This document shows positions 11,671 through 27,377 of a stretch of DNA of 43,217 nt, piece by piece (positions within the stretch are counted from its first letter, which is position 1; each line of letters begins with the position of its first letter). The stretch is from positions 1 to 43,217 of IMG/VR virus record IMGVR_UViG_3300046787_000054. The stretch is one strand, 5' to 3'. The position numbers were made by a program, and so were the translations under genes. The notes below the pieces were generated by a model, which was not told where the DNA came from, ran no database searches, and saw only the letters and a program-made list of their open reading frames with translations. Source of the DNA: a virus.

Positions 11671-12187
11671 CCTTAGCCTCTACATCTACAGGAACACCTT
11701 TGCCAATCTTAGGACCAGCAAACCTAGCAAACTCCTCAGAGAGTTTGAGTAGACGATCATCAATCGTACTTTCAATCTGTTCTTTGACAGGGTTAGCTGA
11801 GAGCTTATCTTGTCTAGCCATCAGGTCAGTAGTGATCTTCAGGGCTACGTGGGCCTTTACTGGCACACGAACAATAGAACCAGTACGCTGATCAAACTGA
11901 GCATCACCTAGGTCTAGGCGATCTTCTACAGCTTTGAGAGCTTTGTCCACAACCTTCTTCATGGTTGAGGTCATTTGCTGAACATCTTCAGCTTGGAGCT
12001 GTAGGGCGTATTCCTTGAACCAATCCGTAGTCTTCCACATCTTCAATGTGGGCAGAGGAATACCTGTAACGACAGCAGTCTCAGCCATGTTGCCTAGCAT
12101 CAGGTACGTACTGACAGCTTGCAACTTCTGGTTCTGTGTCCAGATGGACTTCTTGTAACGACGATCATGGGACTTGGGTCTACGCAT
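11663..12187 (-). CDS. terS: Terminase small subunit
   Basis: 174 aa. The N-terminal ~70 residues contain a helix-turn-helix-like region (QKLQAVSTYLMLGNMAETAV, then GIPLPTLKMWKTTDWFKEYA), matching the phage DNA-recognition domain of small terminases. A coiled-coil and oligomerisation region follows (MTSTMKKVVDKALKAVEDRL). The C-terminus (FAGPKIGKGVPVDVEAKVV) is typical of small terminases that contact the large subunit. It lies immediately upstream of terL with an 8-bp overlap and starts one base after the previous stop. Confidence 0.85.
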   Translation of the reverse strand: MRRPKSHDRRYKKSIWTQNQKLQAVSTYLMLGNMAETAVVTGIPLPTLKMWKTTDWFKEYALQLQAEDVQQMTSTMKKVVDKALKAVEDRLDLGDAQFDQRTGSIVRVPVKAHVALKITTDLMARQDKLSANPVKEQIESTIDDRLLKLSEEFARFAGPKIGKGVPVDVEAKVV

Positions 12188-12370
12188 TTACTTATCCATT
12201 TTCTTGAGGGTTTGAGCTAAACGAGCACGTTGTCCTAACTTGCCGGGCTTCTTTGCAGCAGCAGCTAACTTGGCAGAAGGAATAGGGTCACCTTTCTTCA
12301 CACCAAGGGATGCACGTAAAGCACCGGGCTTCTTGATAGCACCACTGATCCAGTTCTTATTTGTAGTCAT
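12188..12370 (-). CDS. Small basic protein
   Basis: 60 aa, rich in Lys, Ala and Gly: KNWISGAIKKPGALRASLGV, then GDPIPSAKLAAAAKKPGKLG. Proteins with the KNWIxGAIKKPGALRxxLGV pattern are recurrent in aquatic phages and sometimes fused to or beside terminase genes. A nucleic-acid-binding or DNA-condensing role is plausible from charge only. It belongs to a run of four small basic proteins that opens the late operon. Confidence 0.6.
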   Translation of the reverse strand: MTTNKNWISGAIKKPGALRASLGVKKGDPIPSAKLAAAAKKPGKLGQRARLAQTLKKMDK

Positions 12371-12378
12371 GATGTTCC

Positions 12379-12609
12379 TTAACGATGCTTAGCAGTCTTA
12401 GCAGCGATCTTCTTTGGCTGAGCTACAAACTGCTTTCCTTTGGCATTACCTGCTGCCTTAGCTTTGTTGGTAGCTGCCTTCTCACTAGGAGACAGGGACT
12501 TCCAAGCAGCATCAGGTAGATAGCGTTTCTTACCTTCAGATGGTTTACCGTCAGATGTACGCCACTTCTGAGCAGTCCAATCCTTCAAGGACTTCTGTGG
12601 GTTCTTCAT
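12379..12609 (-). CDS. Basic protein resembling C-terminal half of DUF5872
   Basis: 76 aa. The pattern SLKDWTAQKWRTSDGKPSEG, then KRYLPDAAWKSLSPSEKAAT and GNAKGKQFVAQPKKI recalls the second half of DUF5872 proteins found in phages and giant viruses. The matching first half is in the gene immediately upstream (12606-12797), overlapping by an ATGA. Two coupled genes therefore may together supply one DUF5872 unit. Function of the family is unknown; the strong positive charge suggests nucleic-acid contact. Confidence 0.6.
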   Translation of the reverse strand: MKNPQKSLKDWTAQKWRTSDGKPSEGKKRYLPDAAWKSLSPSEKAATNKAKAAGNAKGKQFVAQPKKIAAKTAKHR

Positions 12610-12797
12610 GTCTTGTAACCCCCGCCCTTAGCTTTGTACTCTCTAGCTACGATCTGAGCTTTACGAGCACTCCACTCTCCGGGATCTCCACCTTTAGTAC
12701 CAGCCTTTACCTTTTCAAAGATAGCTTTACGCATAGCAGGTTTGGTGTAGACACCAGCAGCATTCACCTTGGATTTAGGTTTAGCCTTGGTAGCCAT
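12606..12797 (-). CDS. Basic protein resembling N-terminal half of DUF5872
   Basis: 63 aa from the ATG at 12797; an in-frame start at 12815 adds six residues but lies inside the upstream gene. Motifs are GVYTKPAMRKAIFEKVKAGT and KGGDPGEWSARKAQIVAREY, ending KAKGGGYKT. The YTKPxxR...GGxPGxWSARKAQ...GGGY pattern matches the first half of DUF5872 as I remember it. Its stop overlaps the start of the next gene by 4 bp (ATGA), which normally allows reinitiation. Confidence 0.6.
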   Translation of the reverse strand: MATKAKPKSKVNAAGVYTKPAMRKAIFEKVKAGTKGGDPGEWSARKAQIVAREYKAKGGGYKT

Positions 12798-12798
12798 A

Positions 12799-13077
12799 TC
12801 AACACTTCCAAGCACGAAGGCTTTTATTGATACGAGAGTTAGGATCCTTAGCTGTCTTAGCTGAAGTAAGCTTCTTCTTCATGCCTTCCATACGAGCACA
12901 GAAAGAATCTTTACGAGAACCACCTTCAGGTTGAGGAGCTTTGAGTCCCGGCTTACCGGGGTTAGCTGCGTTGTATGAAGCACGACCCTTGGCATTCAAA
13001 CCACCGTTAGGGTTCTTACCTTCTTTACGTTGCCATGCAGGGCTTTTAGCACCTGAAGATTTTTTAGCTGTAGCCAT
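12799..13077 (-). CDS. DUF6321-like small basic protein
   Basis: 92 aa. AWQRKEGKNPNGGLNAKGRA, then GLKAPQPEGGSRKDSFCARM, EGMKKKLTSAKTAKDPNSRI and NKSLRAWKC match the highly conserved DUF6321 pattern of tailed phages. Function unknown. It is the first protein gene of the leftward late arm, with a good AAGGAG ribosome site (minus strand, 13083-13088 region). It is directly preceded by the tRNA-like element and a candidate promoter at 13277-13306. Confidence 0.75.
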   Translation of the reverse strand: MATAKKSSGAKSPAWQRKEGKNPNGGLNAKGRASYNAANPGKPGLKAPQPEGGSRKDSFCARMEGMKKKLTSAKTAKDPNSRINKSLRAWKC

Positions 13078-13103
13078 AGATTACTCCTTGTTAACCAACA
13101 CGA

Positions 13104-13196
13104 CTGAGGACTGTTGGGGGGAGTCGAACCCCCGATAATCCATAACCCATTTCTAGGTTGGCTGCTGCTACCACTGGCTCCATCAGCAATCCTCAG
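13104..13196 (-). tRNA. tRNA-like element (possibly a degenerate tRNA; identity unassigned)
   Basis: On the minus strand a canonical T-arm is present: GGGGG-TTCGACT-CCCCC (13133-13117). The ends pair over 10 bp, CTGAGGATTG (13196-13187) with CAGTCCTCAG (13113-13104), with one G-U. A D-arm-like GCTG/CAGC pair brackets a GTGGTAG-containing loop. An anticodon-like hairpin (AACCT...GGGTT) has only a 6-base loop containing AGAAAT. Three extra bases (CAA) separate the T-arm from the acceptor-like stem, so the cloverleaf is imperfect and I cannot assign an anticodon. It could be a decayed tRNA or a tRNA mimic. No integrase is present, so an att role is unlikely. Confidence 0.35.
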
Positions 13197-13206
13197 ATGT
13201 GTAAGT

Positions 13207-13269
13207 GTTGGGAGTTGGACTAGTCCTGTAGCTCATAGATTGTGTAGAACTCTAGTCCTAACACCCAAC
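13207..13269. repeat. Nested inverted repeat next to tRNA-like element
   Basis: GTTGGG (13207-13212) pairs with CCCAAC (13264-13269). Inside it TTGGACTAG (13215-13223) pairs with CTAGTCCTAA (13252-13261) with one bulged base, leaving a loop of about 28 bases. An alternative register pairs GTGTTGGG with CCTAACAC. It would be transcribed as part of the late leader if the candidate promoter at 13277-13306 is real. Confidence 0.55.
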
Positions 13270-13276
13270 GGGCTAG

Positions 13277-13306
13277 ACTATAACAGCTTGCTAGGTTATC
13301 CGTCTA
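13277..13306 (-). promoter_or_regulatory. Candidate late promoter (sigma70-like, leftward)
   Basis: On the minus strand TAGACG (4/6 to TTGACA) is separated by 18 bp from TATAGT (5/6 to TATAAT). Initiation would fall near 13270, producing a leader through the inverted repeat and tRNA-like element into the DUF6321-like gene. No phage RNA polymerase is visible, so host-type promoters are expected. Unproven. Confidence 0.35.
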
Positions 13307-13354
13307 CTGAAAATAAATATTGAAAAAACAGTGAAATGAATACCTTCAGTGGAC

Positions 13355-13383
13355 TTGACAAGGTTTTTCATTCCCCCGATACT
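13355..13383 (+). promoter_or_regulatory. Candidate early promoter (sigma70-like, rightward)
   Basis: A perfect TTGACA (13355-13360) is followed after 17 bp by GATACT (4/6 to TATAAT). It points toward the early genes but lies ~820 bp upstream of the first one, so it would produce a long structured leader. Confidence 0.35.
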
Positions 13384-13715
13384 CCGTCCCAGTTTCTTTC
13401 TTTTTACTCTTTTTCTTTCTTTGGTCCAAGTAGATATACAGCAGTAGGGGCGGAGCCCCTTATATGTAAAGAGTAAGTTTCTTACAGAAATGTTTTGTGC
13501 GAGGTGTGTAACACCGAGCACCCATTACAGACTACTTACCTTAGCTACCCCCTCTTGTTTAAAAATATGCGGCAGCGTTGTAAGTTGCTATAAGTAAATA
13601 TTTAAAAATAAAAACTTTCCCCTCCCCCCTCTAACTACTACATATAGGGTAGGGTAACCAGCTACTACCCCTACTCTGTTCTTAGTAACAAACCTACACC
13701 ATTGCTGTTAACAAT

Positions 13716-13740
13716 AATTGTTTCACGCAATTGTTTCACG
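13716..13740. repeat. Two tandem copies of AATTGTTTCACG in the control region
   Basis: AATTGTTTCACG occurs at 13716-13727 and again at 13729-13740, a 13-bp period (slightly more than one helical turn). The flank GCTGTTAACAATAATTG is also partly palindromic. Tandem repeats of this size between divergent arms are typical of operators or replication iterons. Confidence 0.5.
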
Positions 13741-13851
13741 GTAATACTGTTGTCTTTATGCAACACTAATGCTGACAACAACTTACAGTCACTTACCCCT
13801 ACATATATCAGTAGCTATTCCAGCCCTTTAAACCTACCTTCCTTCAGTTGT

Positions 13852-13880
13852 TTGACATGCGTTGATAGCTAGACATACAT
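13852..13880 (+). promoter_or_regulatory. Second candidate rightward promoter
   Basis: A perfect TTGACA (13852-13857) is followed after 16-18 bp by weak -10 options (CATACA or TACATG, about 3/6). A third TTGACA at 13949-13954 has no convincing -10. Clustering of three perfect -35 hexamers on the early strand is suggestive only. Confidence 0.25.
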
Positions 13881-14118
13881 GTGCCTACATATCTTCTTCT
13901 AGCTGGTTTAATCTGTCTGCTACTAACCATTACGTTGCGTTAGTTCCGTTGACATCTACGCTCCTTACTGCGCTACGAGCCAAGGTCTGTGGTGTTCGGG
14001 GCGTAGTGGTGCGCATATCTCGCGCCAGTCGCTGTCCTCCTCGCAAGCTCGTCGTCGGCTTTGTGTCACGCGACACGCGATTTCGTGGCGCGGTTGGCGC
14101 TCGCGGCTCTCCGCTTGG

Positions 14119-14191
14119 TTAAGTTGGTTCGTGAACTTTCACCCTCGCCGGGGGCGAGAGGGATGAAAGTCCCCTCACTTTATCAACTTAA
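14119..14191 (+). promoter_or_regulatory. Structured 5' leader hairpin of the first early gene
   Basis: An outer inverted repeat TTAAGTTG (14119-14126) / CAACTTAA (14184-14191) encloses a strong inner hairpin. In the inner stem CTTTCA (14136-14141) pairs with TGAAAG (14164-14169), and CCCTCGCC (14142-14149) pairs with GGCGAG-AGGG (14153-14162) with small bulges. The outer stem ends two bases before the AGGAG ribosome site (14194-14198). There is no U-tract, so this is more likely a leader structure controlling translation or RNA stability than a terminator. Confidence 0.55.
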
Positions 14192-14204
14192 CTAGGAGCT
14201 TCAA

Positions 14205-14438
14205 ATGTCTCAACAAAACAACTTCGACTTCAATGGCTTTAACGCTATGACAGAACGTAAACCTGCTGGCTTACAGATCTTCTTGGCACAACAGCTCTTG
14301 TCTAACGCTCTCTGGAGCATGGAGAAATATGACAACCCCCGTCAGGTGGAGGTTCGTGATGCTCTCAATGCACTGAAGACGTTGCGTACTCAGCTCAAGG
14401 CTGATGCGCTCGCTCGTGAAGCAGCTTCTCCCATGTAA
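14205..14438 (+). CDS. First early protein, unknown function
   Basis: 77 aa. The start has an AGGAG site 6 bases upstream, and the gene lies between the structured leader and a strong terminator (14453-14487). It therefore forms its own transcription unit, probably expressed early and highly. The protein is soluble, with a Gln/Asn-rich N-terminus (SQQNNFDFNGFNAMTE) and two helices (GLQIFLAQQLLSNALWSMEK; VEVRDALNALKTLRTQLKAD). First genes of early arms often encode host take-over proteins. No homologue is recognised. Confidence 0.7.
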   Translation: MSQQNNFDFNGFNAMTERKPAGLQIFLAQQLLSNALWSMEKYDNPRQVEVRDALNALKTLRTQLKADALAREAASPM

Positions 14439-14452
14439 TGTGGGCTTTGATT

Positions 14453-14487
14453 AAGGTAGTAGTTCACTCTACTACCTTCTTCTTTTG
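14453..14487 (+). terminator. Rho-independent terminator after the first early gene
   Basis: AAGGTAGTAG (14453-14462) pairs perfectly over 10 bp with CTACTACCTT (14469-14478) around a 6-base loop, followed by CTTCTTTTG. It would restrict transcription into the rest of the early arm or reduce it by read-through. Confidence 0.85.
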
Positions 14488-14507
14488 TTCAACTAATTGG
14501 AGTTCAC

Positions 14508-14612
14508 ATGAACATCATCTATCTCAACCAACTTAGCCGTGAACAACGGATGAGCTTGGCTGCTGTCATGGAAGCGATCCGTGATCTACGGGAGTTTGAC
14601 TTCTATGGCTAA
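14508..14612 (+). CDS. 34-residue early protein
   Basis: ATG at 14508 is preceded by TTGGAG. It encodes a short amphipathic protein (NIIYLNQLSREQRMSLAAVM, then EAIRDLREFDFYG). Its end overlaps the start of the next gene by 8 bp, which favours real translation. Function unknown. Confidence 0.5.
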   Translation: MNIIYLNQLSREQRMSLAAVMEAIRDLREFDFYG

Positions 14613-14904
14613 GTTCTACCACGCCATCATTTCAATGAAGGATAGATGTGCAACCATCCGTCCTTCAAACCACGGTGTCAACGACATCGAATGGGAGCAC
14701 GGCTGTCGTACTTACGGAGTCGATATGTCTCCCATAGATCTGGAGCTTGATCTCAAGCGGAAGAAGATGTACGACGTACTGGATGCTAGTAAGTGGCAGG
14801 ACTACATCATCTCATTGGATGATCCATCACTTGTTACTAATAACAGCTTCATCAACACTCGTCCTATCAAAGACAAGTGGGATCCTGAAATAACCATTTA
14901 CTGA
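14605..14904 (+). CDS. Early hypothetical protein, 99 aa
   Basis: The start chosen is ATG 14605 (MAKFYHAIISMKD), overlapping the previous stop. The in-frame GTG at 14581 lies inside the preceding gene. The protein is compact and charged, with DIEWEHGCRTYGVDMSPIDL in the middle and DKWDPEITIY at the end. No motif is recognised. A near-copy of the dispersed 12-mer, GTTACTAATAAC (14833-14844), encodes VTNN. Confidence 0.6.
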   Translation: MAKFYHAIISMKDRCATIRPSNHGVNDIEWEHGCRTYGVDMSPIDLELDLKRKKMYDVLDASKWQDYIISLDDPSLVTNNSFINTRPIKDKWDPEITIY

Positions 14905-14916
14905 CTGGAGACTTAC

Positions 14917-15006
14917 ATGATTGAAAACGATGAGATCTTTGTACTGAACCGTATCTTGTACGTTCTGTATGCCGTAGCAATCCTTGTTATATGGATGACA
15001 TTATGA
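14917..15006 (+). CDS. 29-residue single-pass membrane peptide
   Basis: ATG 14917 has a GGAG site (CTGGAGACTTAC). After a short charged N-terminus (IENDEIFVLNR) the rest is hydrophobic (ILYVLYAVAILVIWMTL), a single transmembrane helix. It ends with a 4-bp ATGA overlap with the next start. Many phages make such tiny early membrane peptides; function is unknown. Confidence 0.5.
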   Translation: MIENDEIFVLNRILYVLYAVAILVIWMTL

Positions 15007-15146
15007 ATACTTACAAATGCTTTTACGACTTGGGATTCATAGAAGTCTCAGCTAACAACAAACAAGAAGCCGCTGATAAAGCGGCTCTTTTGTTTGGACT
15101 AGGACGGAAGTCATGGCTTGTCAAAGCCTACTTGATGGGACAGTGA
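15003..15146 (+). CDS. 47-residue early protein
   Basis: It begins in the ATGA overlap with the membrane peptide. It encodes NTYKCFYDLGFIEVSANNKQ, then EAADKAALLFGLGRKSWLV. The phrase xVSANNKQEAADKAA resembles small phage proteins with a strand-helix layout (MNTYKCFY...VxANSxxEAxxKA). No function can be assigned. The GC-rich leader element follows. Confidence 0.5.
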   Translation: MNTYKCFYDLGFIEVSANNKQEAADKAALLFGLGRKSWLVKAYLMGQ

Positions 15147-15168
15147 CGCTCCTCTCAGCAAGCTGCAC

Positions 15169-15250
15169 GCCAGCAGAGCTGGCATTTGCTTGCGAGGTCG
15201 TCGCTCCCATATCTAAGCGGGCTTGTCGTCTGCCCGCCTCAAGCGGGGGC
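15169..15250 (+). promoter_or_regulatory. GC-rich leader with alternative hairpins
   Basis: Three inverted repeats lie in the gene-free stretch before the acidic protein gene. GCCAGC-AGA-GCTGGC (15169-15183) is a perfect 6-bp stem. GCGGGC (15217-15222) pairs with GCCCGC (15232-15237). The same GCCCGC can instead pair with GCGGGGGC (15243-15250), allowing one skipped base. The last two are mutually exclusive, the arrangement expected of an attenuator or switch. No U-tract follows. Confidence 0.45.
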
Positions 15251-15290
15251 AGTCGCCTTCACCCTTTATTCACTCACATTGGAGATAGCT

Positions 15291-15479
15291 ATGAACAGTA
15301 AAGATGTCTTAGATTTAATTGACGAAGCATCATGGGAAGACAGTGATAAAGTCGAAAAACTCACTCTCGAAGAAGCTGGTTTTGAAGAACATAACCCGAC
15401 AGATGATGCTTTCTTGTCTGGTATTCATGCCTACATCAACTGGTTCTACGACGGGATGCAATCTGAATTCGACGTTTAA
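15291..15479 (+). CDS. Small acidic early protein, 62 aa
   Basis: Start ATG 15291 with TTGGAG upstream. It is very acidic: DVLDLIDEASWEDSDKVEKL, EEAGFEEHNPTDDAF and a C-terminus DGMQSEFDV. It is preceded by the alternative-hairpin leader and followed by the 12-bp hairpin at 15490-15517. Small acidic phage proteins often act as DNA mimics or inhibitors of host enzymes, but there is no direct evidence of that here. Confidence 0.65.
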   Translation: MNSKDVLDLIDEASWEDSDKVEKLTLEEAGFEEHNPTDDAFLSGIHAYINWFYDGMQSEFDV

Positions 15480-15489
15480 CTTTACATCT

Positions 15490-15517
15490 ATACCCAATTG
15501 GACCGCCAGTTGGGTAT
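15490..15517 (+). promoter_or_regulatory. 12-bp hairpin upstream of the Nmad5-like gene
   Basis: ATACCCAATTGG (15490-15501) pairs with CCAGTTGGGTAT (15506-15517) around ACCG, with one G-U pair. It lacks a run of T, so it may protect or process the mRNA, or terminate weakly, rather than act as a full terminator. Confidence 0.55.
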
Positions 15518-15548
15518 GTAGGTAATGTTGCCTGAGAGAAAGGAACCT

Positions 15549-16037
15549 ATGCGAGTTAGCAAATGGGATAAACAAGCTATTGTCAAATCTATCATGGCAG
15601 ATGTACCAATGCCTGACAAAACTAAGCGACGAGCTGAAGTTCAAGCTGAAGTGGTCAAACTTATGTCGCCTGAATGTCGTAAGGTCTACAAGATCACTCC
15701 TGATGCTTTAGTCACGCTACATCTTGGTGATGTTATTTATGACGGACACCGTTGGGATCACCGTAGTGTTGTAGCAGGAAATGTCACTGAAAGCCAAGTA
15801 CAACAGCTTGTGAAGAAATACAAAGATGAAGATCAAAAATTCTACGCTGTACGAGATCAACTCAAAGCAACAGTAGACTCTTGTTCCACAGTCAAGCAAC
15901 TCAATGATCGTTTGCCTGAGTTCAAGAAGTACTTCCCAACAATAGAAAAACCTGTGGCTAATCTGCCAGCAACAGCCAATTTAGTTGCTGATCTCACCAA
16001 ACTTGGTTGGCCTAAAGGTGCTAAACAATCAAAGTAA
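15549..16037 (+). CDS. Nmad5-like protein (putative nucleotide-modification-associated family)
   Basis: 162 aa from ATG 15549, preceded by AAAGGA; an in-frame ATG at 15525 lacks such a site. The N-terminus is helical and basic (WDKQAIVKSIMADVPMPDKT). The C-terminal signature CSTVKQLNDRLPEFKKYFP followed by LPATANLVADLTKLGW resembles the TVKxLLxxWPE...FLP...LP pattern of Nmad5 proteins. Those were named for association with phage DNA-base-modification loci. The match is from memory and moderate. It opens the unit that contains the VWA and AAA+ genes. Confidence 0.55.
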   Translation: MRVSKWDKQAIVKSIMADVPMPDKTKRRAEVQAEVVKLMSPECRKVYKITPDALVTLHLGDVIYDGHRWDHRSVVAGNVTESQVQQLVKKYKDEDQKFYAVRDQLKATVDSCSTVKQLNDRLPEFKKYFPTIEKPVANLPATANLVADLTKLGWPKGAKQSK

Positions 16038-16046
16038 TCAACTTTC

Positions 16047-16071
16047 ATATAGCTTTGGTTCAGAGCTATAT
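16047..16071 (+). promoter_or_regulatory. Hairpin before the 148-aa gene
   Basis: ATATAGCT (16047-16054) pairs perfectly with AGCTATAT (16064-16071) around a 9-base loop. It ends 22 bases before the GGAGG ribosome site (16093-16097). Probably an mRNA structure; there is no T-tract. Confidence 0.4.
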
Positions 16072-16102
16072 GGAGGCGATATTGCCTTGTACGGAGGATG
16101 AA

Positions 16103-16549
16103 ATGGAAGCTATGCTATCCACTCTCTACGCTGCTGCTACTGAAGCTTTGGTTTCAGAAACGTCAGCTACGAGTACCTTTGAGAAGATGATTGCTGTTGC
16201 TTATACACATAGCACAGTGGATACCTTTGTAAAAGATCTCAAAGACACTGAGAAACAGATCAAGAAAGACTACGAGATCGGGTCTATGCCCGGTCCTTGG
16301 CGTTCTGCTAAGTCTGTGATTCAAAGCGCAATGAAGCTAGGCATCAGCTTAGTGGACGACAACGGTGGTTATCGTGGTAAATCTGCTCTTCAACAGAAGA
16401 TCAAGGAAGCCAAGCCTGTAAAGGAAGAGATGACTAACCAAGAATACGCAGACAAAATCATCAAGTCTCTCATGTTCGTACCTGAAGAGCTAGATGCTAA
16501 GACTGTACACATGCTTGTCAAAGACTTTTGTAATAGCGCGAGCTACTAA
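16103..16549 (+). CDS. Hypothetical protein preceding the VWA/AAA+ pair
   Basis: 148 aa from ATG 16103, 5 bases after a strong GGAGG; an in-frame ATG at 16070 is weaker. It is helical and soluble, with FEKMIAVAYTHSTVDTFVKD, PGPWRSAKSVIQSAMKLGIS and a lysine-rich segment (KSALQQKIKEAKPVKEE) before the C-terminal helix DAKTVHMLVKDFCNSASY. The PGPWRSAKSVI segment resembles phage proteins found next to Nmad5 and VWA genes, but I cannot name a family. It ends 2 bp before the VWA gene, so the two are co-translated. Confidence 0.6.
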   Translation: MEAMLSTLYAAATEALVSETSATSTFEKMIAVAYTHSTVDTFVKDLKDTEKQIKKDYEIGSMPGPWRSAKSVIQSAMKLGISLVDDNGGYRGKSALQQKIKEAKPVKEEMTNQEYADKIIKSLMFVPEELDAKTVHMLVKDFCNSASY

Positions 16550-16551
16550 CC

Positions 16552-18339
16552 ATGCTTACTGAAGGCATTCAGGTAATGAAGTATTGCAGAGCCAGCGCAG
16601 GTCGTGCTGGACTCTCTGTAGTCTTTGAAGACGTAAACCAACCAAGACATGATGGTCGAACCATCTATCTTCCACGGATTACGTACAAAACTACCGACAT
16701 GGAACTCAAACAACTGATGGCATCTGTTGACCACGAGGTTGCACATGACAAGTTCAGTTGCTTTGATGTCCTAAAAGAAAAGAAAGCTGATCCAAAGGGT
16801 TTGCTCATGTTTGTGTGGAACTTCTTAGAAGATTCACGCATCAACATGATCGAAGCCAATGAGTATCAGGGTTTCAAAGAGAACTGGGATGATTGCAGTT
16901 CTATCTTGGTCAAAGACATCTTGTTGAAGACCAAGTTGGAGAAAACAACCATGTCAGTGCTCGTTGAAGCACTTCTCTACTGGGAATCACGTATCTCAGC
17001 TTACAACTTTCCACAAATCGAGTTGGCTGCAAGCCATGTAACTCCTAACAAGAAAATTGTCGATGTTCTTAGTAACTTTTCTGATCGCCTTGTATATTGC
17101 CATGAGATTATCAGCAAGAAAGTAGGCACTGAAGCTACTTTCCAACTTGCTGAAGACATCCTCAAGGAGTTGGAAGACAAGTGCAAGGATGAGCTGCCCA
17201 AACCTAAACCAAAAGCCTCTGGAGGCAAAGGTGAGAAGGATGGGAAAGGTACTAAATCATCCTCTAAAACGGGTGAATCAGGCGGAGAAGAGCCTTCCAA
17301 GGGTGAAGGTGATGCCTCCAAGATGGTTGATGAGGAATACAAAATCATCGAAGTTAAAGTCACTGAGGAAGACCTTGAACGGTACTCTCTGACTATCCCA
17401 GAAGAAACCTCTATGGGTAAAACTGGTATTAACTTCAAGCCTGTGACATCTACTAGAGGAACTTGGGATCTGACTGACTTCAATAAGTTTATTGTTGTTG
17501 ATTACCCCAAGAACACTGGTCCCGGACGATATAGAAGCGAGACTTCTAGCAAATATTTTGTTGACGAGTATGAACGTAGGACAGAACCTAAGATCATCTC
17601 TCAAGAAAACTTTGCACAACAAGTTCGTCGTCTGATTCAGATCCGAGCTAAGGTTCAACGTGTCTATGGTGTCAAGAAAGGCAAGCTAGATCAGTCTCGA
17701 CTGTCTCGCATCTGCTTCAATGCACCGGGATTCAATGAACGTGTATTCAAGAACAAGATCGACAACAAAACACTAGATGCAGCTATCACCGTATTGGTTG
17801 ATAAGTCTGGCTCTATGTGTGGTGAGAAAGATCAATTTGCTCTTGCTGCAACACAGATGCTTAACGAGGTTTGCTCAACTCTCAACATCCCAGTAGAAAT
17901 CATTGGCTTCTCTGACGATGTGGTTGGTACTGAAGCTGTGCCTCTTATGTACATCTACAAAAGCTTCTCTGACCACAAAGTTAGCTATGTGGATCTAAAG
18001 AAGTTCTACGGTATGAGCAGTGGTCACATGCACGGCAATCCTGATGCAGAAAACATTCTTTGGGCACATGAACGTTTGGTTCAGCGTAAAGAGAAGAAGA
18101 AGCTATTGATTGTCATGTCTGATGGTAGTCCTGCTGCAACCAAGGGTGGTAGCGGAATTGGTAGGTATACCCATGAAGTTATCAGAGAAATCGAAGCGTC
18201 TAAGAACGTTGAGATCTATGGCTTGGGTTTGTGTAGCACCTCTGTAAAAGAGTACTACAAGTCTCATAGTGTTGTTGACGAACCTCAAGACATTCCAGCT
18301 AAGTTAATCGAGTTAATAGAAAGGAAGATCCTAAGATGA
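16552..18339 (+). CDS. CobT-like VWA-domain protein with HExxH motif
   Basis: 595 aa. The N-terminal region has DHEVAHDKF (HExxH at residues 61-65) and NFLEDSRINMIE (about 90-101), a zincin-like arrangement. Residues ~215-262 are a low-complexity Lys/Ser/Gly/Glu linker. The C-terminal VWA domain has the MIDAS motif LVDKSGSMCG (417-421 core), then GNPDAENILWAHERL (495-509) and LLIVMSDGSP (518-527), closely following the C-terminal pattern of CobT. In cobaltochelatase and MoxR systems such VWA proteins act with an AAA+ partner, here encoded directly downstream with an ATGA overlap. No vitamin B12 pathway genes are present, so the target is more likely a phage or host macromolecular complex. Confidence 0.85.
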   Translation: MLTEGIQVMKYCRASAGRAGLSVVFEDVNQPRHDGRTIYLPRITYKTTDMELKQLMASVDHEVAHDKFSCFDVLKEKKADPKGLLMFVWNFLEDSRINMIEANEYQGFKENWDDCSSILVKDILLKTKLEKTTMSVLVEALLYWESRISAYNFPQIELAASHVTPNKKIVDVLSNFSDRLVYCHEIISKKVGTEATFQLAEDILKELEDKCKDELPKPKPKASGGKGEKDGKGTKSSSKTGESGGEEPSKGEGDASKMVDEEYKIIEVKVTEEDLERYSLTIPEETSMGKTGINFKPVTSTRGTWDLTDFNKFIVVDYPKNTGPGRYRSETSSKYFVDEYERRTEPKIISQENFAQQVRRLIQIRAKVQRVYGVKKGKLDQSRLSRICFNAPGFNERVFKNKIDNKTLDAAITVLVDKSGSMCGEKDQFALAATQMLNEVCSTLNIPVEIIGFSDDVVGTEAVPLMYIYKSFSDHKVSYVDLKKFYGMSSGHMHGNPDAENILWAHERLVQRKEKKKLLIVMSDGSPAATKGGSGIGRYTHEVIREIEASKNVEIYGLGLCSTSVKEYYKSHSVVDEPQDIPAKLIELIERKILR

Positions 18340-19469
18340 CATCTCCAGCCGCGAGTTCCACACCTCCAAAAGTGGAAGACCTTGTTAAGAAAGCTTTGAA
18401 AGAAGCTTTGGACAAACGCAAATCAACAACAACCGTGTTACCAGTAACAATGGATGAGCCTACCAGCGTCAAAGAACTTGAAGAGTGTGGCGTAGAAACA
18501 ACAGTTTCTGCAAAAGTAGAGTTGAAAGACTCTCAGCGATGGCTCTCAGAAATCATTGGCAGTAAGTTATCTGTAAGCGAAGACTTTCCTGTCACATCTT
18601 TTGCTGACTACGACTGGGACTCACGAGTCTCGTCATTCATTCCAGCTATCAATGAAGCGTATGTGATAGATAAAGAGCTGGCTTCTAACGTCTTACGTGC
18701 ATGGGAACTCAATGAGAAAGTTTTGTGTTTCGGTCCTACGGGAGCTGGCAAGTCTAGCCTTATTGAGCAGCTTTGTGCTCGTACCAAGCGTCCTTTCATT
18801 CGCGTTAATTGCACTGGGGATATGGATAGCTCAATGATCTTTGGTCAGCTAACGGCTAAGGATGGTTCGACACACTGGGTTGACGGTGCAGTAACAGAAG
18901 CTGTCAAGTACGGTGCTGTGTTTGCATGGGACGAATGGGATGTCACACCTCCTGAGATCTCAATGGGTCTGCAATGGCTCTTAGAGGACGAGGGCAAGCT
19001 CTTCTTGAAAGAGATGCCCGGCAGTACCACTGAGAAACAAATCATTCCTCACGAGAACTTTAGGATCGTTGCTATTGGTAACACTCAAGGCCAAGGTGAT
19101 GAGTCTGGTGCTCATGCAGGTACTAACGTCCAGAACTCGGCTACACTCGACCGCTTTGGTACGGCAGTCTACATTGACTACCTACGACCAGACATTGAGG
19201 AGAAGATGTTGAAGAACAAGTTCAAAGACATCAACACCAAGGCAGTCAAGGAACTTGTGAAGCTTGCTAACCTGATTCGTACCGGCTACAAGGCCAGTCA
19301 GTTCAGCTTAACAATGTCACCACGTTCTTTGTTTAGCATCTGTCGTAAGGTTCAAACAGGCTGTGATCTCAAGCAAGCATTCGCTCTTGTGTATCTCAAC
19401 AAACTGAATGACACACAACGTAAGGTTGCTGACGAGCTATACACCAAGGTGTACGGTAAGAACGCTTAA
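18336..19469 (+). CDS. CobS/MoxR-like AAA+ ATPase
   Basis: 377 aa. Walker A GPTGAGKSS lies at residues 133-141, Walker B AVFAWDEWD at 194-202, sensor-1 FRIVAIGNTQGQGD at 242-254, and a downstream ATLDRFG near 270 could give the arginine finger. Residues 85-130 (DYDWDSRVSSFIPAIN, then VLRAWELNEKVL) match the CobS lead-in. The first ~60 residues are disordered and charged. It begins inside the VWA stop codon and ends at a terminator, so the pair forms one module. A MoxR-type ATPase plus VWA adaptor remodels or inserts metal into target proteins; cyanophage cobS genes are a precedent for phage carriage. Confidence 0.88.
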   Translation: MTSPAASSTPPKVEDLVKKALKEALDKRKSTTTVLPVTMDEPTSVKELEECGVETTVSAKVELKDSQRWLSEIIGSKLSVSEDFPVTSFADYDWDSRVSSFIPAINEAYVIDKELASNVLRAWELNEKVLCFGPTGAGKSSLIEQLCARTKRPFIRVNCTGDMDSSMIFGQLTAKDGSTHWVDGAVTEAVKYGAVFAWDEWDVTPPEISMGLQWLLEDEGKLFLKEMPGSTTEKQIIPHENFRIVAIGNTQGQGDESGAHAGTNVQNSATLDRFGTAVYIDYLRPDIEEKMLKNKFKDINTKAVKELVKLANLIRTGYKASQFSLTMSPRSLFSICRKVQTGCDLKQAFALVYLNKLNDTQRKVADELYTKVYGKNA

Positions 19470-19471
19470 AC

Positions 19472-19520
19472 CTCAAAACCACAAGGCTCTCCTTCGGGAG
19501 AGCTTTCTATTTTGAGTTTT
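19472..19520 (+). terminator. Strong rho-independent terminator after the AAA+ gene
   Basis: The core stem GCTCTCC-TTCG-GGAGAGC has a UUCG tetraloop. It is extended by CTCAAAA (19472-19478) pairing with TTTTGAG (19510-19516), followed by TTTT. It separates the VWA/AAA+ module from the replication genes. Confidence 0.88.
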
Positions 19521-19545
19521 ATCCAATTCAGATAAAGAAAGATAA

Positions 19546-19713
19546 ATGAACAACAGAATTGCTTTGTCTCACTTAGACACACGGTTTATACAAGCTATGG
19601 TTGGTGCTATGTACAGATTTGAATGTGCAACAGCAACACTAGAGAACATAGACAAATTAATGACTGACGAAGAGATGTTTGATTTTTACTGGAGCTACAT
19701 GTATGCCCATTGA
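19546..19713 (+). CDS. 55-residue hypothetical protein
   Basis: ATG 19546 follows GAAAGAT. It encodes ALSHLDTRFIQAMVGAMYRF, then ATLENIDKLMTDEEMFDFYW. It is helical with no known motif. Its end overlaps the primase start by 11 bp, suggesting translational coupling of the two. Confidence 0.5.
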   Translation: MNNRIALSHLDTRFIQAMVGAMYRFECATATLENIDKLMTDEEMFDFYWSYMYAH

Positions 19714-20503
19714 TCGCAAACTAATCCTAGCCAATGCTCCTAGTAACACAGGAGAACAGGTACATGTCAACCACACAGGCTGCGAAGCAGGTGAAGACAA
19801 GAAGAAACGCTTGTACATCAAGCGTACAGAGAAAGGTCTTGTGGCTTACTGCCACCACTGCAACGAGTCTGGTTTTGCCAAGGACGGTGACACTAGGCTA
19901 GGCACATGGATACACAAGAAGTCTGAGGCTGTTGTAAAAGTACAACAGAAGCCAGAGCTAGGACCGCTGAGCATAAACGGCAAGATGTGGCTGCTTGAGA
20001 ACCACTGCACAACAACAAGCAAACTATTTTCTGGGATCGTTGATGATCCAAAGAAAGTAGCGATGGCTTTGCAGAATGAATACGGTGTAGTGCTAGGTTG
20101 GCAGATGCGTAACCTCACACCTGATGCTGTGCCTAAGTACACAACGTACTACATAGACACCAAAACAAAAGGTGAATCTGCTTGGTTTTACAACGGTAGC
20201 AAGGTTCTTGTAATCACTGAGGATTATCTTAGTGCTTATCGTGTCTCTCGTGATGTTGGGTACTCCTCAATGGCGTTACTAAGAACAACCATCACAGACA
20301 AAACGTTGATGCAAATCTACGGCATGGGGTTTAGCGAGATCTACATCTGGTTGGACTCTGATGAAGCGGGAGTTAAGGGAGCAGCCAAGGTGTCAAAAAC
20401 ATTGAGGCACTTCCTGCCATCTGATGTGAGGCTAATGACGATTCATTCCGATGATGAGCCTAAGCATCTCACACCAGAACAGTTAGACAAGAAATTTTTA
20501 TAA
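19703..20503 (+). CDS. DNA primase (zinc-binding plus TOPRIM), helicase on separate gene
   Basis: 266 aa from ATG 19703, with GGAG at 19691-19694. The N-terminus has putative zinc ligands in VNHTGCEAG (His24, Cys27) and AYCHHCNESG (Cys50-x2-Cys53). The TOPRIM domain shows VLVITEDYLSAYRV (Glu173) and IWLDSDEAGVKGA (Asp218, Asp220). It makes RNA primers for lagging-strand synthesis. In T7 this domain is fused to the helicase as gp4; here the helicase is a separate gene 9 bp downstream. Length fits a stand-alone primase core. Confidence 0.85.
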   Translation: MPIDRKLILANAPSNTGEQVHVNHTGCEAGEDKKKRLYIKRTEKGLVAYCHHCNESGFAKDGDTRLGTWIHKKSEAVVKVQQKPELGPLSINGKMWLLENHCTTTSKLFSGIVDDPKKVAMALQNEYGVVLGWQMRNLTPDAVPKYTTYYIDTKTKGESAWFYNGSKVLVITEDYLSAYRVSRDVGYSSMALLRTTITDKTLMQIYGMGFSEIYIWLDSDEAGVKGAAKVSKTLRHFLPSDVRLMTIHSDDEPKHLTPEQLDKKFL

Positions 20504-20512
20504 GGAGCTATC

Positions 20513-21775
20513 TTGGATTACGACGTACTGTATCTGTGCAGTCAAAGCAAAGAGAACCTAGCAAAGTACAAGCGGTACATCAAACCGCATGTAGTGATGA
20601 AGGAAACCAACATCATCCTTGACGGGATGGAACGTTACTTCAAAACATTCCCTTCAGTAGCACTGCTGAATTGGGATTCGTTCTCTGCGTACTTGATTGC
20701 AGACCAAAGCAAACGATTGACTGACGACGCTATTGTTAAGCTTCGCATGACGCTGACTAAAGCAAAGACGTTTGAACCGCACTGTGCCCATGAGGAAGTG
20801 GTCAAGACTCTCATCGAGTTGGACTATCTTGCCAAGATCATGGAAGAGTGTGAGAAAGTAAAGGAAGGTGAGAGTGATCTCGAACACGTTCACATCCTAG
20901 CAACCAACGCATTGAAAGATGTGGAGAGATACATTGAAAAAGACGAATTGTTTGTTAGTGCTGACTTATCTTCTATTGCTGACCGTATCACTAGTTCAGG
21001 GTATGAGTGGAGATTGGACGCCCTTAATCGTTCTCTTGGTCCCTTGCGTACTGGAAATTTTATTATCGTTGCAGCTCGTGTCGAAGTAGGCAAGACAACA
21101 TTCTTGGCTAGTGAGGTCAGCTATCTTGCACAACAGTTACCAGCAGATCGTCCTGTCGTATGGGTCAACAACGAAGAAGAATCTTCTGTTGTGTTCTTCC
21201 GTATTGTGCAGGCTACGTTAGGTCAAGAGTCTAAGGTGATCATCGCTGACTCTAAGGCAGCAATGGAAACCTACACAACCATGATGGGTGGCAACAAAGA
21301 CAAGATCCGTGTGACCAAAGACACCAACAACATGCGTGACCTTGAGACACTGTTCAAAGAAGTTAATCCCGGACTCATTGTGTTCGATCAACTCGACAAG
21401 GTTGATGGTGTGAAAGGTGATGAGCCTGAACACTTGAAGCTTGGTAAGTTGTACAAATGGGCACGAGAACTTGCAAGAACGTATGGCCCAGTTATTGCAG
21501 CATCACAATTGTCTGCTGGTGTTGTAGAAATGAAAGACCCTCCGTTCATTGGTCTTGATGCTCTGCGTGGTTCTAAGACTGACAAGCCGGGTGAAGCTGA
21601 TGTCGTGCTTACTATCGGTAAGTACAAAGAACCTAAGTCACCAGAAGAAGAAATGATCCGGACGATCAACGTTCCTAAGAACAAATTGCCCGGTGGTGGA
21701 TCTAAACAAATGGAGTCTGAACGTCATGGTCAGTATCTTGTGACCATTGATCCAATCAGAGCGAGGTATGAGTAG
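20513..21775 (+). CDS. Replicative DNA helicase (DnaB/gp4-type RecA-like)
   Basis: 420 aa. The start is TTG 20513, supported by AAGGAG at 20502-20507; no better ATG is near. The N-terminal ~150 residues are helical (linker/primase-interaction region). The RecA core has Walker A IIVAARVEVGKTTFLA, of the DnaB AARxxxGKT type, then VVWVNNEEESSVV (H1a-like Glu), Walker B NPGLIVFDQLDKVDG and GPVIAASQLSAG (H3-like Gln). The H4-like end is GSKTDKPGEADVVLTI. It unwinds DNA ahead of the phage polymerase as a hexamer. It overlaps the next gene by 8 bp. Confidence 0.88.
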   Translation: MDYDVLYLCSQSKENLAKYKRYIKPHVVMKETNIILDGMERYFKTFPSVALLNWDSFSAYLIADQSKRLTDDAIVKLRMTLTKAKTFEPHCAHEEVVKTLIELDYLAKIMEECEKVKEGESDLEHVHILATNALKDVERYIEKDELFVSADLSSIADRITSSGYEWRLDALNRSLGPLRTGNFIIVAARVEVGKTTFLASEVSYLAQQLPADRPVVWVNNEEESSVVFFRIVQATLGQESKVIIADSKAAMETYTTMMGGNKDKIRVTKDTNNMRDLETLFKEVNPGLIVFDQLDKVDGVKGDEPEHLKLGKLYKWARELARTYGPVIAASQLSAGVVEMKDPPFIGLDALRGSKTDKPGEADVVLTIGKYKEPKSPEEEMIRTINVPKNKLPGGGSKQMESERHGQYLVTIDPIRARYE

Positions 21776-22583
21776 TTCATCAGATCCTAGGTTGATGTAC
21801 CCAAACCACACAGATGTGTACACAGGCGAAACTACGTTTGCTTTGCCTGATGGTAGACGAATCCGGTTTACCAACGAATACATAGAAGATCACCCAGACA
21901 GTGTGTGCAGACACTTAACTTTTGCTGCAAGTAAAGGAGAAGAGATGGCAAAGCGACACCCTAAGTACACGGCTGAAGCTGCAAGGCTGAAGCCACCAAC
22001 TTGGAAAGATCCTAGATCAGATGCGTATACGTATCTTTCAACTACGTCTACAGATGTAGATCGTAAAGCTGTTGATGAAAAGATTCGTAAAGAGTATGAC
22101 GATTTGTTCTGGACCTACACCTCAGGCCTTAAAGGAACTAGTCCCACAATTTCAACCTCATCCCCAACATCATGGGACTATGTGCCATACGAGTTTGCAA
22201 AGAAGGAGCTACCTATGAATCCGTTCTTAGACAAGGTTGTGAAGATGGAGTACGTTGGCAGCAGGATCACTTGCAACCCTGCACCTACAGACACAGACGA
22301 AGATGTGCTGTTGCTTACCGATGATTTGGAAACCTTGATTGGTGACTGTATCGAGGTAGGCTTTACACGAGATGGTGATACCAAAGCATCTTACCCAGAA
22401 GGTTTTGTTTCGTTGAGAAACGGATCAATGAATTTTATTGTTACTGATGACGAGGAGTTTTATAAGAAGTTCATGCTTGCAACACACGTATGCAAGTCCC
22501 TGAACCTGATGGAAAAGAACAACAGGATTACAGTGTTCCAAGCTATCTTGTATGGCAAGGAATATGAATATGTACCGTTTTAA
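21768..22583 (+). CDS. Nucleotidyltransferase-like phage protein
   Basis: 271 aa from ATG 21768 (GAGG just upstream, overlap with the helicase stop). The N-terminal ~100 residues contain TTFALPDGRRIRFTNEYIED. A Ser/Thr-rich linker (TSPTISTSSPTSWDY) leads to a C-terminal domain with MEYVGSRITCNPAPTDTDED, then YPEGFVSLRNGSMNFIVTDD and LNLMEKNNRITVFQAILYG. The GSR...DTDED spacing recalls the GS-x-DxD motif of polymerase-beta-type nucleotidyltransferases, and this family is often labelled so in phages. Activity is not shown. It sits between helicase and polymerase genes, so a nucleic-acid role is likely. Confidence 0.6.
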   Translation: MSSSSDPRLMYPNHTDVYTGETTFALPDGRRIRFTNEYIEDHPDSVCRHLTFAASKGEEMAKRHPKYTAEAARLKPPTWKDPRSDAYTYLSTTSTDVDRKAVDEKIRKEYDDLFWTYTSGLKGTSPTISTSSPTSWDYVPYEFAKKELPMNPFLDKVVKMEYVGSRITCNPAPTDTDEDVLLLTDDLETLIGDCIEVGFTRDGDTKASYPEGFVSLRNGSMNFIVTDDEEFYKKFMLATHVCKSLNLMEKNNRITVFQAILYGKEYEYVPF

Positions 22584-22606
22584 CTAAGAAAGGACCGTGG
22601 AAAACC

Positions 22607-24559
22607 ATGACCACGATGCCAACATTCGTAGCTATCGACGTTGAGACAACTCTCAATGCCAATGAAGATGTGGGACTAGCTCACCCTATGCACCCCGACA
22701 ACAGAGTTGTTGCTTGGGGCATTACTAAAGACTATGAACACTACACCCCACAGACTACATACACTGAAGCTGTGTTTGAAGCTCTTGTAGAAGCGAGTCT
22801 TCCAGACAACGTGTTCTGTGGTCACAACCTAGCGTTTGATTTGATGTACTTGTACAAAAATCCTAAGCTCAAGAGTCTGCTGCAAGAACGAAAGATCTGG
22901 GACACACAGTTAGCGGAGTACATTCTGAGTGCTCAACAAACTAAGTGGTCTAGTCTTGATGAGCTATCTATCAAGTATGGGCTGCCTGTTAAAGACGACA
23001 CAATCAAAGCTTATTTCAAAGCAGGCTTTGGTTCTGACAAGATCCCTCCAGAGGAATTGATTCCTTACTTGGAACAGGATGTTACTAATACCGTAGCTAT
23101 TGCTAAGAAGCAATGGCAACGTGCTGTAGATCAAGGACAACTGACTCTCATTGAGACTCAGATGGAAGCTCTACATGCAACTACAGAGATGCAGTTCAAT
23201 GGCTTGCACATTGATCGACCAGCTCTTGACAACTACACATTGGAAGTTGTTAACGAATACGTTGATGTCAAACTAAAACTAGAGTCTCTGGCTACAGGTT
23301 TGGTGGATGACATTAACAGTCCTAAACAATGGTCACAGTTCTTCTTCGGTGGAACTAAGAAGGTCAAGGTCAAGGAAGAAGTTGGCTTCTACAAAAACGG
23401 TAAGGTGAAGACTAAGCTGGTGGATAAGGAGATCACTCTCAAGCCATTCATCAAGTACGTACCTGATCCTGACAAGGTGTCAGCTAAGACAGGCCAAGTA
23501 TCTGTTGACGACTCTGTGTTGAACGACATGCTCAAGCATACGTTTGATCCTGCTGCAATTGGAATCATCGAATCTTTGTTGCAGTATCGTGAGTTGTCTA
23601 AGCAACTATCTACGTATGTGCAAGGGCTGAGTAAGCACATTATTGATAATGGTGGACAACACTTTATACATGGCAAGTTGAATCACACAGCAACTGTTAC
23701 AGGTCGTTTGTCTTCAACCAATCCTAACTTGCAAAACATTTCTAACAACCCAATCAAACAGATCTTTACCTCACGGTACAAGGACGGTGTGATTGTGGAG
23801 ATGGACTTTAACCAACTGGAAGTTGTTGCGTTAGCTCACGTTACTGGTGACTTGCAGTTGATCCATGACATCTCTAGTGGTGCTGACATCCACTCTGAGT
23901 TGTACAAAGGAATGTTTGGTCGTTACCCTACCAAGGAAGAACGCAAGCCATTCAAGGCTAGAACATTCCAATTGATCTACGGTGCTGGTGCTAAGGCTAT
24001 TAGCAAGCAAGCAGGTTGTAGTCTTGAAGAAGCTAAGAAGTTTGTTGATGTGTTCTATGGACGCTACCCACAAGTAGGTTTCTGGCACAAAGACTTTGCT
24101 GCTCAAGTAGAACGCTATGCAACATACGAATTGGATGACGATGGTTTCCGTGAGAAGACTAAGACGTACATCCTTAACACTGAGACAGGACGTAAGTTCT
24201 GCTTCAAGGAATATCACAGCGATAGTTCGTGGTCTACACGGACCTACAACTTCAGTCCAACTGAGTTGAAGAACTATCCCGTGCAAGGTTTAGCAACAGG
24301 TGACATTGTTCCAATGATGTTGGGAGTTATGTTCCGGTTGTTGAAAGGGCGAGATGATGTGAAGATGGTTAACACCATTCACGATTCTCTTATGTTTGAT
24401 GTCAAGCTGAGTTCAGCAGACGACTTTGTGAAAGGAATGACAGAGCTACTACAAAACACACATGTCTATTTTGAGACAACATTTGGAAAGCCACTGGCAC
24501 TCAAGCTCAATGCAGGTGCTTCAGTCGGTATTAATTGGTATGAAATGAAAGAACTTTGA
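22607..24559 (+). CDS. DNA polymerase, family A (with 3'-5' exonuclease)
   Basis: 650 aa. Exonuclease motifs: FVAIDVETTLNA (Exo I, DxE), FCGHNLAFDLMYL (Exo II) and YLEQDVTNTVAI (Exo III, YxxxD). Polymerase motifs: VTGRLSSTNPNLQNI, motif A VEMDFNQLEVVALAH, motif B KPFKARTFQLIYGAG and motif C MVNTIHDSLMFDV. The whole layout is that of PolA/T7 polymerase-type enzymes and length is normal. It copies the phage genome with the adjacent primase and helicase. The ATG at 22607 has a weak, rather distant AAAGGA site. Confidence 0.95.
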   Translation: MTTMPTFVAIDVETTLNANEDVGLAHPMHPDNRVVAWGITKDYEHYTPQTTYTEAVFEALVEASLPDNVFCGHNLAFDLMYLYKNPKLKSLLQERKIWDTQLAEYILSAQQTKWSSLDELSIKYGLPVKDDTIKAYFKAGFGSDKIPPEELIPYLEQDVTNTVAIAKKQWQRAVDQGQLTLIETQMEALHATTEMQFNGLHIDRPALDNYTLEVVNEYVDVKLKLESLATGLVDDINSPKQWSQFFFGGTKKVKVKEEVGFYKNGKVKTKLVDKEITLKPFIKYVPDPDKVSAKTGQVSVDDSVLNDMLKHTFDPAAIGIIESLLQYRELSKQLSTYVQGLSKHIIDNGGQHFIHGKLNHTATVTGRLSSTNPNLQNISNNPIKQIFTSRYKDGVIVEMDFNQLEVVALAHVTGDLQLIHDISSGADIHSELYKGMFGRYPTKEERKPFKARTFQLIYGAGAKAISKQAGCSLEEAKKFVDVFYGRYPQVGFWHKDFAAQVERYATYELDDDGFREKTKTYILNTETGRKFCFKEYHSDSSWSTRTYNFSPTELKNYPVQGLATGDIVPMMLGVMFRLLKGRDDVKMVNTIHDSLMFDVKLSSADDFVKGMTELLQNTHVYFETTFGKPLALKLNAGASVGINWYEMKEL

Positions 24560-24560
24560 T

Positions 24561-25085
24561 ATGACAATGATGACAGGTATCGTGGAAGCAGTATCCACAA
24601 AAGATGTAAACACTAAGTTTGGCTTGAAGCCTACCTTCTCTATGAAGGTCAACGGCAACTGGGTCAAATGTGGCTTTAAGACTCACGGCGCATCCGTTGG
24701 TGATGAGGTTGAGTTTGATGGCAACACAGGTACATACGGCATGGAAACAAAAGCCGTTAACGTTATTCGTCGAGGTGTAGGTGCAGCTCCATCAGCAGGT
24801 GTTACTAGTAGCACAGCAGCTCCAACACCACTCACTACTTATGGCAAGGGTGTGTACAAAGAGAAGGTGTTCCCTATCCCTGCTTTGCATGGTGATCGTG
24901 CCATCGTTCGTCAGAACGCATTGGCTCGTGCAACAGACATCTTCATCGCAGCTCGTGGTGGTAAACCATTTGAGTTGGACGAGTCTACGTTCACCTTGGT
25001 GATTGGCTTTGCTCGCAAGTTTGAAGCTTACACAGCAGGCGACTTGGACATGGCTGAAGCAGTAGCAGAGCAAGCATCAGAGTAA
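24561..25085 (+). CDS. Single-stranded DNA-binding protein-like
   Basis: 174 aa, starting one base after the polymerase stop. The first ~70 residues look like an OB-fold (GIVEAVSTKDVNTKFGLKPT, then GDEVEFDGNTGTYGMETKAV). An Ala/Thr/Pro linker follows. The C-terminal part contains GDRAIVRQNALARATDIFIA, a pattern I associate with phage SSB-like proteins, and an acidic end (DLDMAEAVAEQASE), as in many SSBs where the tail recruits partner proteins. Position after polymerase and before exonuclease agrees. Assignment is moderate. Confidence 0.65.
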   Translation: MTMMTGIVEAVSTKDVNTKFGLKPTFSMKVNGNWVKCGFKTHGASVGDEVEFDGNTGTYGMETKAVNVIRRGVGAAPSAGVTSSTAAPTPLTTYGKGVYKEKVFPIPALHGDRAIVRQNALARATDIFIAARGGKPFELDESTFTLVIGFARKFEAYTAGDLDMAEAVAEQASE

Positions 25086-25090
25086 GTTAA

Positions 25091-25182
25091 TGAGGGCTGT
25101 TAAGCCAGCATTCGAGGATGTCAACGTAGGAAGTTTTCTGGCTTTCTGTCCTACCTAGTTGAAGACCAAATCGAAGCCCTCA
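25091..25182 (+). ncRNA. Candidate structured RNA (pseudoknot-like) between SSB-like and exonuclease genes
   Basis: TGAGGGCT (25091-25098) pairs perfectly with AGCCCTCA (25175-25182), closing the element. Inside, AAGCCAG (25102-25108) pairs with CTGGCTT (25138-25144). GTAGGA (25126-25131) pairs with TCCTAC (25149-25154). These two stems interleave, the signature of an H-type pseudoknot or of two alternative folds. A small GGCT-GTTA-AGCC hairpin competes with the first. The element fills the only sizeable gap in the replication operon and ends 9 bases before the ribosome site of the exonuclease. Possible cis-regulator, riboswitch-like element or small RNA. Confidence 0.5.
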
Positions 25183-27373: not shown

Positions 27374-27377
27374 TAAC

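Follow-up and report, generated by a model that had tools for sequence, protein, structure and literature searches.

A CobT/CobS-like gene pair beside phage replication genes: a candidate MoxR-type remodelling machine with a zincin-like domain

What does a CobT/CobS-like gene pair do in a phage? The literature mostly treats such genes, on phages and plasmids alike, as vitamin B12 auxiliary metabolic genes. We took up the question in a 43,217-base virus record from IMG/VR (IMGVR_UViG_3300046787_000054), the whole of which we call the window. The carrier is a small freshwater-type phage. Its identified structural (head and tail) and lysis genes lie on the minus strand, at both ends of the window, and a plus-strand arm from about 12.5 to 29.8 kb encodes a primase, a DnaB-type helicase, DNA polymerase A and a 5'-3' exonuclease. 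Immediately upstream of the primase, on the plus strand, are p148, which encodes a helical protein of 148 amino acids (16103..16549), a gene for a CobT-like protein of 595 amino acids (16552..18339) and a gene for a CobS-like MoxR-family AAA+ ATPase of 377 amino acids (18336..19469). Our preferred reading, held with middling confidence, is that p148-cobT-cobS encodes a MoxR-type AAA+ protein-remodelling machine and that its likeliest substrate is the phage's own replication or recombination proteins.

Which genes belong to the unit? A first-pass annotation of the sequence had described four genes, beginning with an Nmad5-like gene (162 amino acids; 15549..16037, plus strand). All four open reading frames, the 148-amino-acid one before cobT included, lie there. 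We surveyed 84 related contigs in which CobT identity falls as low as 44%, and the order p148-cobT-cobS-primase-helicase-polymerase is retained across them, as far as each contig reaches. Every contig that extends beyond the start of cobT carries p148 directly before it (76/76). By contrast with this constancy of p148, cobT and cobS, the predicted four-gene co-occurrence did not survive: tblastn found no Nmad5 in the 84 contigs, and its Pfam model found it in 1 of 26 clade genomes, the window itself. Nmad5 therefore falls outside, and the real unit is p148-cobT-cobS, three genes rather than four. The stop codon of cobT and the start codon of cobS overlap as ATGA, which bears out the coupling first proposed. 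The strong terminator proposed at the end of the unit stands in part. Downstream of cobS there is a terminator-like hairpin (19483..19506, plus strand; stem GCTCTCC, loop TTCG, stem GGAGAGC) with a T-rich tail and a z score of -5.9, but a strict perfect-stem criterion is satisfied in only 18 of 85 sequences.

The ATPase is the plainest part of the unit. Walker A (GPTGAGKS) and Walker B (VFAWDE) are intact, as first described, and together with sensor 1, LDRF and SPRSL they are nearly all invariant in 50 sequences, the ATPase motifs being kept in 50/50. The protein scores 62 bits against PF07728 (cut-off 22; E 7e-17), and a phmmer search of the PDB returned the midasin AAA region as its top match, with CobS also among the matches. 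Its neighbour matches PF11775 at 89 bits (cut-off 21; E 4e-25) and ends in a VWA domain with a metal ion-dependent adhesion site (MIDAS), DKSGSM, at residues 417-422 (17800..17817, plus strand). The D, S, G, S and M of this motif are unchanged in 50/50 sequences, and the GNPDAE block begins at residue 495. Intact ATPase motifs beside a VWA protein with an intact MIDAS are the sequence features expected of a MoxR AAA+/VWA pair. The proposed joining of such a motor to a probable metallopeptidase-type domain is, at the level of sequence, strongly conserved.

That domain occupies roughly residues 1-210 of the CobT-like protein and is zincin-like by its motifs; a low-complexity charged linker (about 215-310) separates it from the C-terminal VWA/MIDAS region. 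It contains HEVAH at residues 61-65 (16732..16746, plus strand), a putative zinc-site helix, followed by N90-x-x-E93-D94 (16819..16833, plus strand), in which E93 is the putative third metal ligand. HEVAH is invariant in 48/48 sequences and in 31/31 clade proteins; in those 31, with identity down to 46%, so are N90, E93 and D94. An HExxH followed by a downstream acidic third ligand is the sequence signature of a zincin (gluzincin-like). In an AlphaFold2 (AF2) model, the N-terminal domain and the VWA core are confident, and HExxH (helix 49-68) and E93 (helix 84-104) fall on two nearby helices. Foldseek matches to the model are dominated by the VWA domain, the best being the VWA of NorD (bound to NorQ) and the midasin MIDAS domain. 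Among Pfam peptidase families, none matched the N-terminal domain above cut-off.

Could HEVAH be a chance occurrence? We examined 23 CobT representatives from mobile elements: T4-like cyanophages, pelagiphages, a jumbo Ochrobactrum phage, SSU5-type phage-plasmids, Zobellviridae, Gordonia and Brevibacterium phages, and conjugative plasmids. The window and its close relatives account for four of the 23, and the alignment was built without seven of them. In 19/23, HExxH and the E-D pair are intact at the same alignment column, and nearly all distant relatives show an NxxED-type motif there. Invariance in the clade and recurrence at one column in unrelated phages and plasmids place the motif beyond chance. 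The fusion of a VWA protein to an HExxH domain, as first reported, is present but not new. PF06213, the CobT N-terminal family, matches the window's protein weakly and spans the HExxH domain in relatives (E 5e-29 in SSU5). In the solved cobaltochelatase CobT, which can be aligned with this domain, the histidines are replaced. By sequence, the HExxH domain is the ordinary CobT N-terminal domain. Among 80 bacterial CobTs, which are close relatives of one another and all of alphaproteobacterial type, HExxH is kept in none (0/80); the column reads S/A-(M/L/I)-A-L-(R/K). For phage CobT the best reading is that of a VWA co-chaperone, zincin-like in character, which serves a MoxR AAA+ motor.

On what might such a machine act? 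In most lineages examined the pair stands beside replisome or recombination genes, which is suggestive. Vibrio phage ICP2 has the gene order of the window's clade, with primase, DnaB and polymerase beside the pair. The pair adjoins DnaE, or lies one or two genes before it, in Salmonella SSU5, Escherichia Cyrano and PhiR41_1, Pseudomonas ZY21, Rhizobium X66 and Stenotrophomonas BUCTxx99. In P-HM1 and phiOC it precedes the sliding clamp, and in HTVC008M it does so at a distance of five genes; T5S1 has DNA polymerase and primase/helicase genes near it. On conjugative plasmids, ssb, RecT, exonuclease and toprim genes lie near an AAA-DUF3150-VWA cluster.

We propose that the CobS-like ATPase would form a ring that pulls on protein, as its family does. 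The CobT-like protein would serve as co-chaperone: by analogy with midasin and NorQ-NorD, its MIDAS-bearing VWA domain would bind a carboxylate of the substrate complex and couple it to the ring, and its putative zincin-like N-terminal fold, with the metal-site residues intact, would dock the substrate and may cleave it. The product of p148 is probably a clade-specific adaptor or a partner, perhaps a substrate, of the machine. The likeliest substrate would be a replication or recombination complex encoded by the neighbouring genes (here primase, DnaB helicase and DNA polymerase A); a corrin chelatase is less probable. Of the targets first listed, replication is the best supported.

Several observations weigh against this proposal. 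HExxH has been lost in Stenotrophomonas BUCTxx99, Pseudomonas ZY21 and an Acinetobacter plasmid, and the CobT of ICP2 is without the third ligand; peptidase activity is therefore not essential everywhere. The neighbourhood is also uneven. CRP-810 and Acinetobacter P577 have no annotated replication gene near the pair, and several genes separate the pair from the nearest one in S-CRM01, the Gordonia phages and Cantare. Our tally of replication neighbours was made by eye on annotated genes, without a null, over lineages that are only partly independent. Because many early and nucleotide-metabolism genes cluster near replication genes, the neighbourhood is suggestive only.

Perhaps the machine builds virions instead? 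A MoxR AAA+/vWA pair with an N-terminal metallopeptidase is known from group 2.2 jumbo phages, where virion assembly was proposed (PMC7824862). A chaperone-protease for assembly or maturation of the virion would fit the window's pair in that the domain set is the same and there is cited precedent, which extends to a two-tailed archaeal virus (PMC7824862, PMC7911831). We nonetheless regard this as unlikely. The pair sits on the plus-strand replication arm, the head, tail and lysis genes that could be identified are on the minus strand, and the structural arm has a separate GroES-like co-chaperonin of its own (PF00166, E 6e-13; 7441-7788, minus strand).

Alternatively, the pair might serve host takeover or counter-defence by unfolding or cleaving some protein of the host, as the first-pass annotation preferred. 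Its position in the early arm is compatible with this, and complexes of the host are conceivable targets for an AAA+/VWA/peptidase architecture. However, conservation of the pair alongside the replication block is strict and vertical, even where CobT identity has fallen to 44%, whereas counter-defence genes usually spread patchily. PADLOC returned only generic, weak AAA+ matches, and Nmad5 is a passenger. We consider this role improbable as well.

That leaves the reading by which these genes are usually named: a viral CobST that joins host CobN and boosts cobalamin for nucleotide synthesis (PMC8651126). Both proteins are indeed homologous to the cobaltochelatase subunits, including those of the solved CobNST structures, and some carriers encode ribonucleotide reductase. 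However, both score far under the NCBIfam equivalog cut-offs: 101 bits against 759 for the CobT-like protein (TIGR01651; 51 and 46 bits in a whole-genome search) and 129 bits against 559 for the CobS-like protein (TIGR01650). No CobN was found in the window with PF02514 or TIGR02257, nor with PF02514 in 29 other phage records (30 phage records in all). Neither the window nor 16 of its 17 relatives has a ribonucleotide reductase (PF02867), which leaves 1 carrier among 18 clade genomes. The initial observation that the pair comes with no cobalamin genes is thus upheld for CobN and ribonucleotide reductase in the window. Escherichia phage PhiR41_1 was isolated on E. coli K-12 MG1655 and has a CobT with intact HExxH, and the E. 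coli control search found no CobN-family protein. Since CobN is missing, ribonucleotide reductase occurs in 1/18, the scores fall below cut-off and one carrier infects E. coli K-12, the B12 reading is weakened; HExxH, moreover, is kept in phage CobTs and lost in the bacterial CobTs examined. Hence a vitamin B12 role for the pair is disfavoured, and the auxiliary cobaltochelatase is the least probable of the three alternatives. We also considered membership in the Roseobacter "cobaviruses" (PMC6775973). It is not evidence here because the group takes its name from a cobalamin-dependent ribonucleotide reductase, and the main text mentions neither CobS nor CobT.

What, then, is p148? The protein is helical, with an MP..WRS.K..V motif that is invariant in the clade alignment. 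It matched no Pfam family and nothing in a fold search of the PDB; in BFVD its sole matches are uncharacterised phage proteins. Relationship to DUF3150 found no support by hhalign, nor did relationship to the open reading frames beside cobT/cobS in other phages by hmmsearch.

Upstream of p148 the unit has a leader hairpin (16037..16081, plus strand; 50 bits with covariance model R1), followed by the palindrome-like GGCGATATTGCC and, in relatives, by GGCAATGTTGCC or variants of it. The hairpin has 16 base pairs, with 94% of cells paired and 10/16 pairs changed on both sides. Its covariation is strong, at 0.653 against 0.214 +/- 0.026 in shuffled alignments and about 0.1 when slid. Positions 12000 to 30000, leader hairpin included, matched no Rfam family. 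The hairpin and palindrome are reminiscent of the start-associated sequences found in mycobacteriophages of cluster K.

Model R1 finds the hairpin before p148 in most relatives, and in several carriers a second copy precedes an accessory gene. The window has such a copy before nmad5 (15480..15527, plus strand; 28.6 bits, E 1.5e-6). Between the hairpins is a variable slot. In relatives it holds genes unrelated to Nmad5 (DUF1281/Api92-like, MGLDMYL-type or MKLTKQQ-type, two of these families being unknown ones) or nothing; small unrelated genes lie before p148 at L007:4777-5490, L020:4836-5360, L015:3043-3426 and L041:5063-5494. Three relatives are informative about how the slot is filled. L005 has no gene between hairpin and p148, and its single hairpin (5485-5530) agrees at 100% identity with the upstream one of L022 (5031-5076), a phage that carries an accessory gene. 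The second hairpin of L022 (5485-5530), which lies between this gene and p148, differs from that of L005 (64%) and is 98% identical to its counterpart in L025 (5486-5531), a carrier of the same accessory gene. This pattern of identities suggests that accessory genes enter the slot together with a hairpin, much like gene cassettes. From its two flanking hairpins, we infer that Nmad5 entered in the same way.

The Nmad5-like gene is an accessory passenger in this slot, and we rejected it as a component of the system. It is above the cut-off for PF18757 (E 2.5e-12), yet the match covers the last 73 positions (134-206 of 206) and the domain is not whole. A mutation of nmad5 in Dhillonvirus has been linked to escape from the Tmn defence (PMC11846954), a finding that concerns the passenger and not the module.

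Two further genes of the minus strand deserve mention. At 2493-2837 lies a DUF5856 protein, whose PHROG name is starvation-inducible transcriptional regulator, and at 12799-13077 a 92-amino-acid DUF6321 protein, which corresponds to the C-terminal end of much larger proteins in other phages. A megablast search with the first 25 kb of the window gave no match among phage records, and a scan of genome contigs with the clade alignment brought up no cellular relative.

How far might the preferred reading extend? CobT-like proteins are encoded by 1,025 plasmid records, mostly from Klebsiella, Escherichia, Acinetobacter and Enterobacter and many of about 105-120 kb, where they are commonly annotated as porphyrin or cobalamin biosynthesis; CobT/CobS-like genes also occur in hundreds of phage records. 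Presence or absence of HExxH plus NxxED is a simple criterion that sets most of the proteins from mobile elements apart from the cobaltochelatase CobTs of bacteria that we examined. We raise, as a doubtful but real possibility, that mobile "CobT/CobS" is a widespread protease-coupled MoxR-VWA machine serving phage and conjugative-plasmid replisomes and that bacterial cobaltochelatase CobT is a derivative with a dead metallopeptidase site. If the pair does act on replisomes, a common metagenomic annotation is wrong and a replication chaperone has gone unrecognised. Because one carrier infects E. coli K-12, the B12 reading can be put to a direct test. In the open-access papers that we read we did not find the link between the phage "peptidase" domain and a CobT N-terminal domain with an intact site, nor the bacterial loss of HExxH or the CobN-less E. 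coli K-12 carrier, which is no proof of novelty.

Is the system itself undescribed, as first suggested? Related pairs have been published. The viral cobST pair of haloarchaeal tailed viruses, cyanophages and others has been read as serving cobalamin production, and cyanophage cobT is frequently annotated as a peptidase (PMC8651126). Those pairs, like the window's, are adjacent CobS-like AAA+ and CobT-like VWA/MIDAS genes in tailed viruses; the window differs in its zincin signature, its lack of CobN and ribonucleotide reductase, and its clade-specific p148. The jumbo-phage pair (PMC7824862) is alike in its stated domain set, MoxR plus vWA with an N-terminal metallopeptidase, whereas the window's clade has genomes of 43-50 kb with the pair beside primase, helicase and polymerase. 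Because the pair is known in other phages, the one in the window is a new example and not a new kind.

Cellular and plasmid systems complete the comparison. Aerobic cobaltochelatase CobS/CobT (TIGR01650/TIGR01651; PDB 9uka series) is homologous in both subunits, N-terminal domain included, and is set apart by the window's low equivalog scores and missing CobN and by the loss of HExxH from the bacterial CobTs examined (0/80). NorQ-NorD and midasin (MDN1) give the best structural matches to the VWA domain, and by sequence the CobS-like protein finds its top match in the AAA region of midasin; their substrates differ from the one we propose. The AAA-DUF3150-VWA cluster of conjugative plasmids (IncC type and others) has a CobT-like VWA protein that shares HExxH..NxxED and lies near ssb, recT, exo and toprim genes. 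We observed such clusters, with the motif, on the conjugative or mobilizable plasmids L106, L107 and L108. In them DUF3150 stands between the AAA and VWA genes, whereas in the window cobT and cobS adjoin directly and p148, which shows no relation to DUF3150, precedes both.

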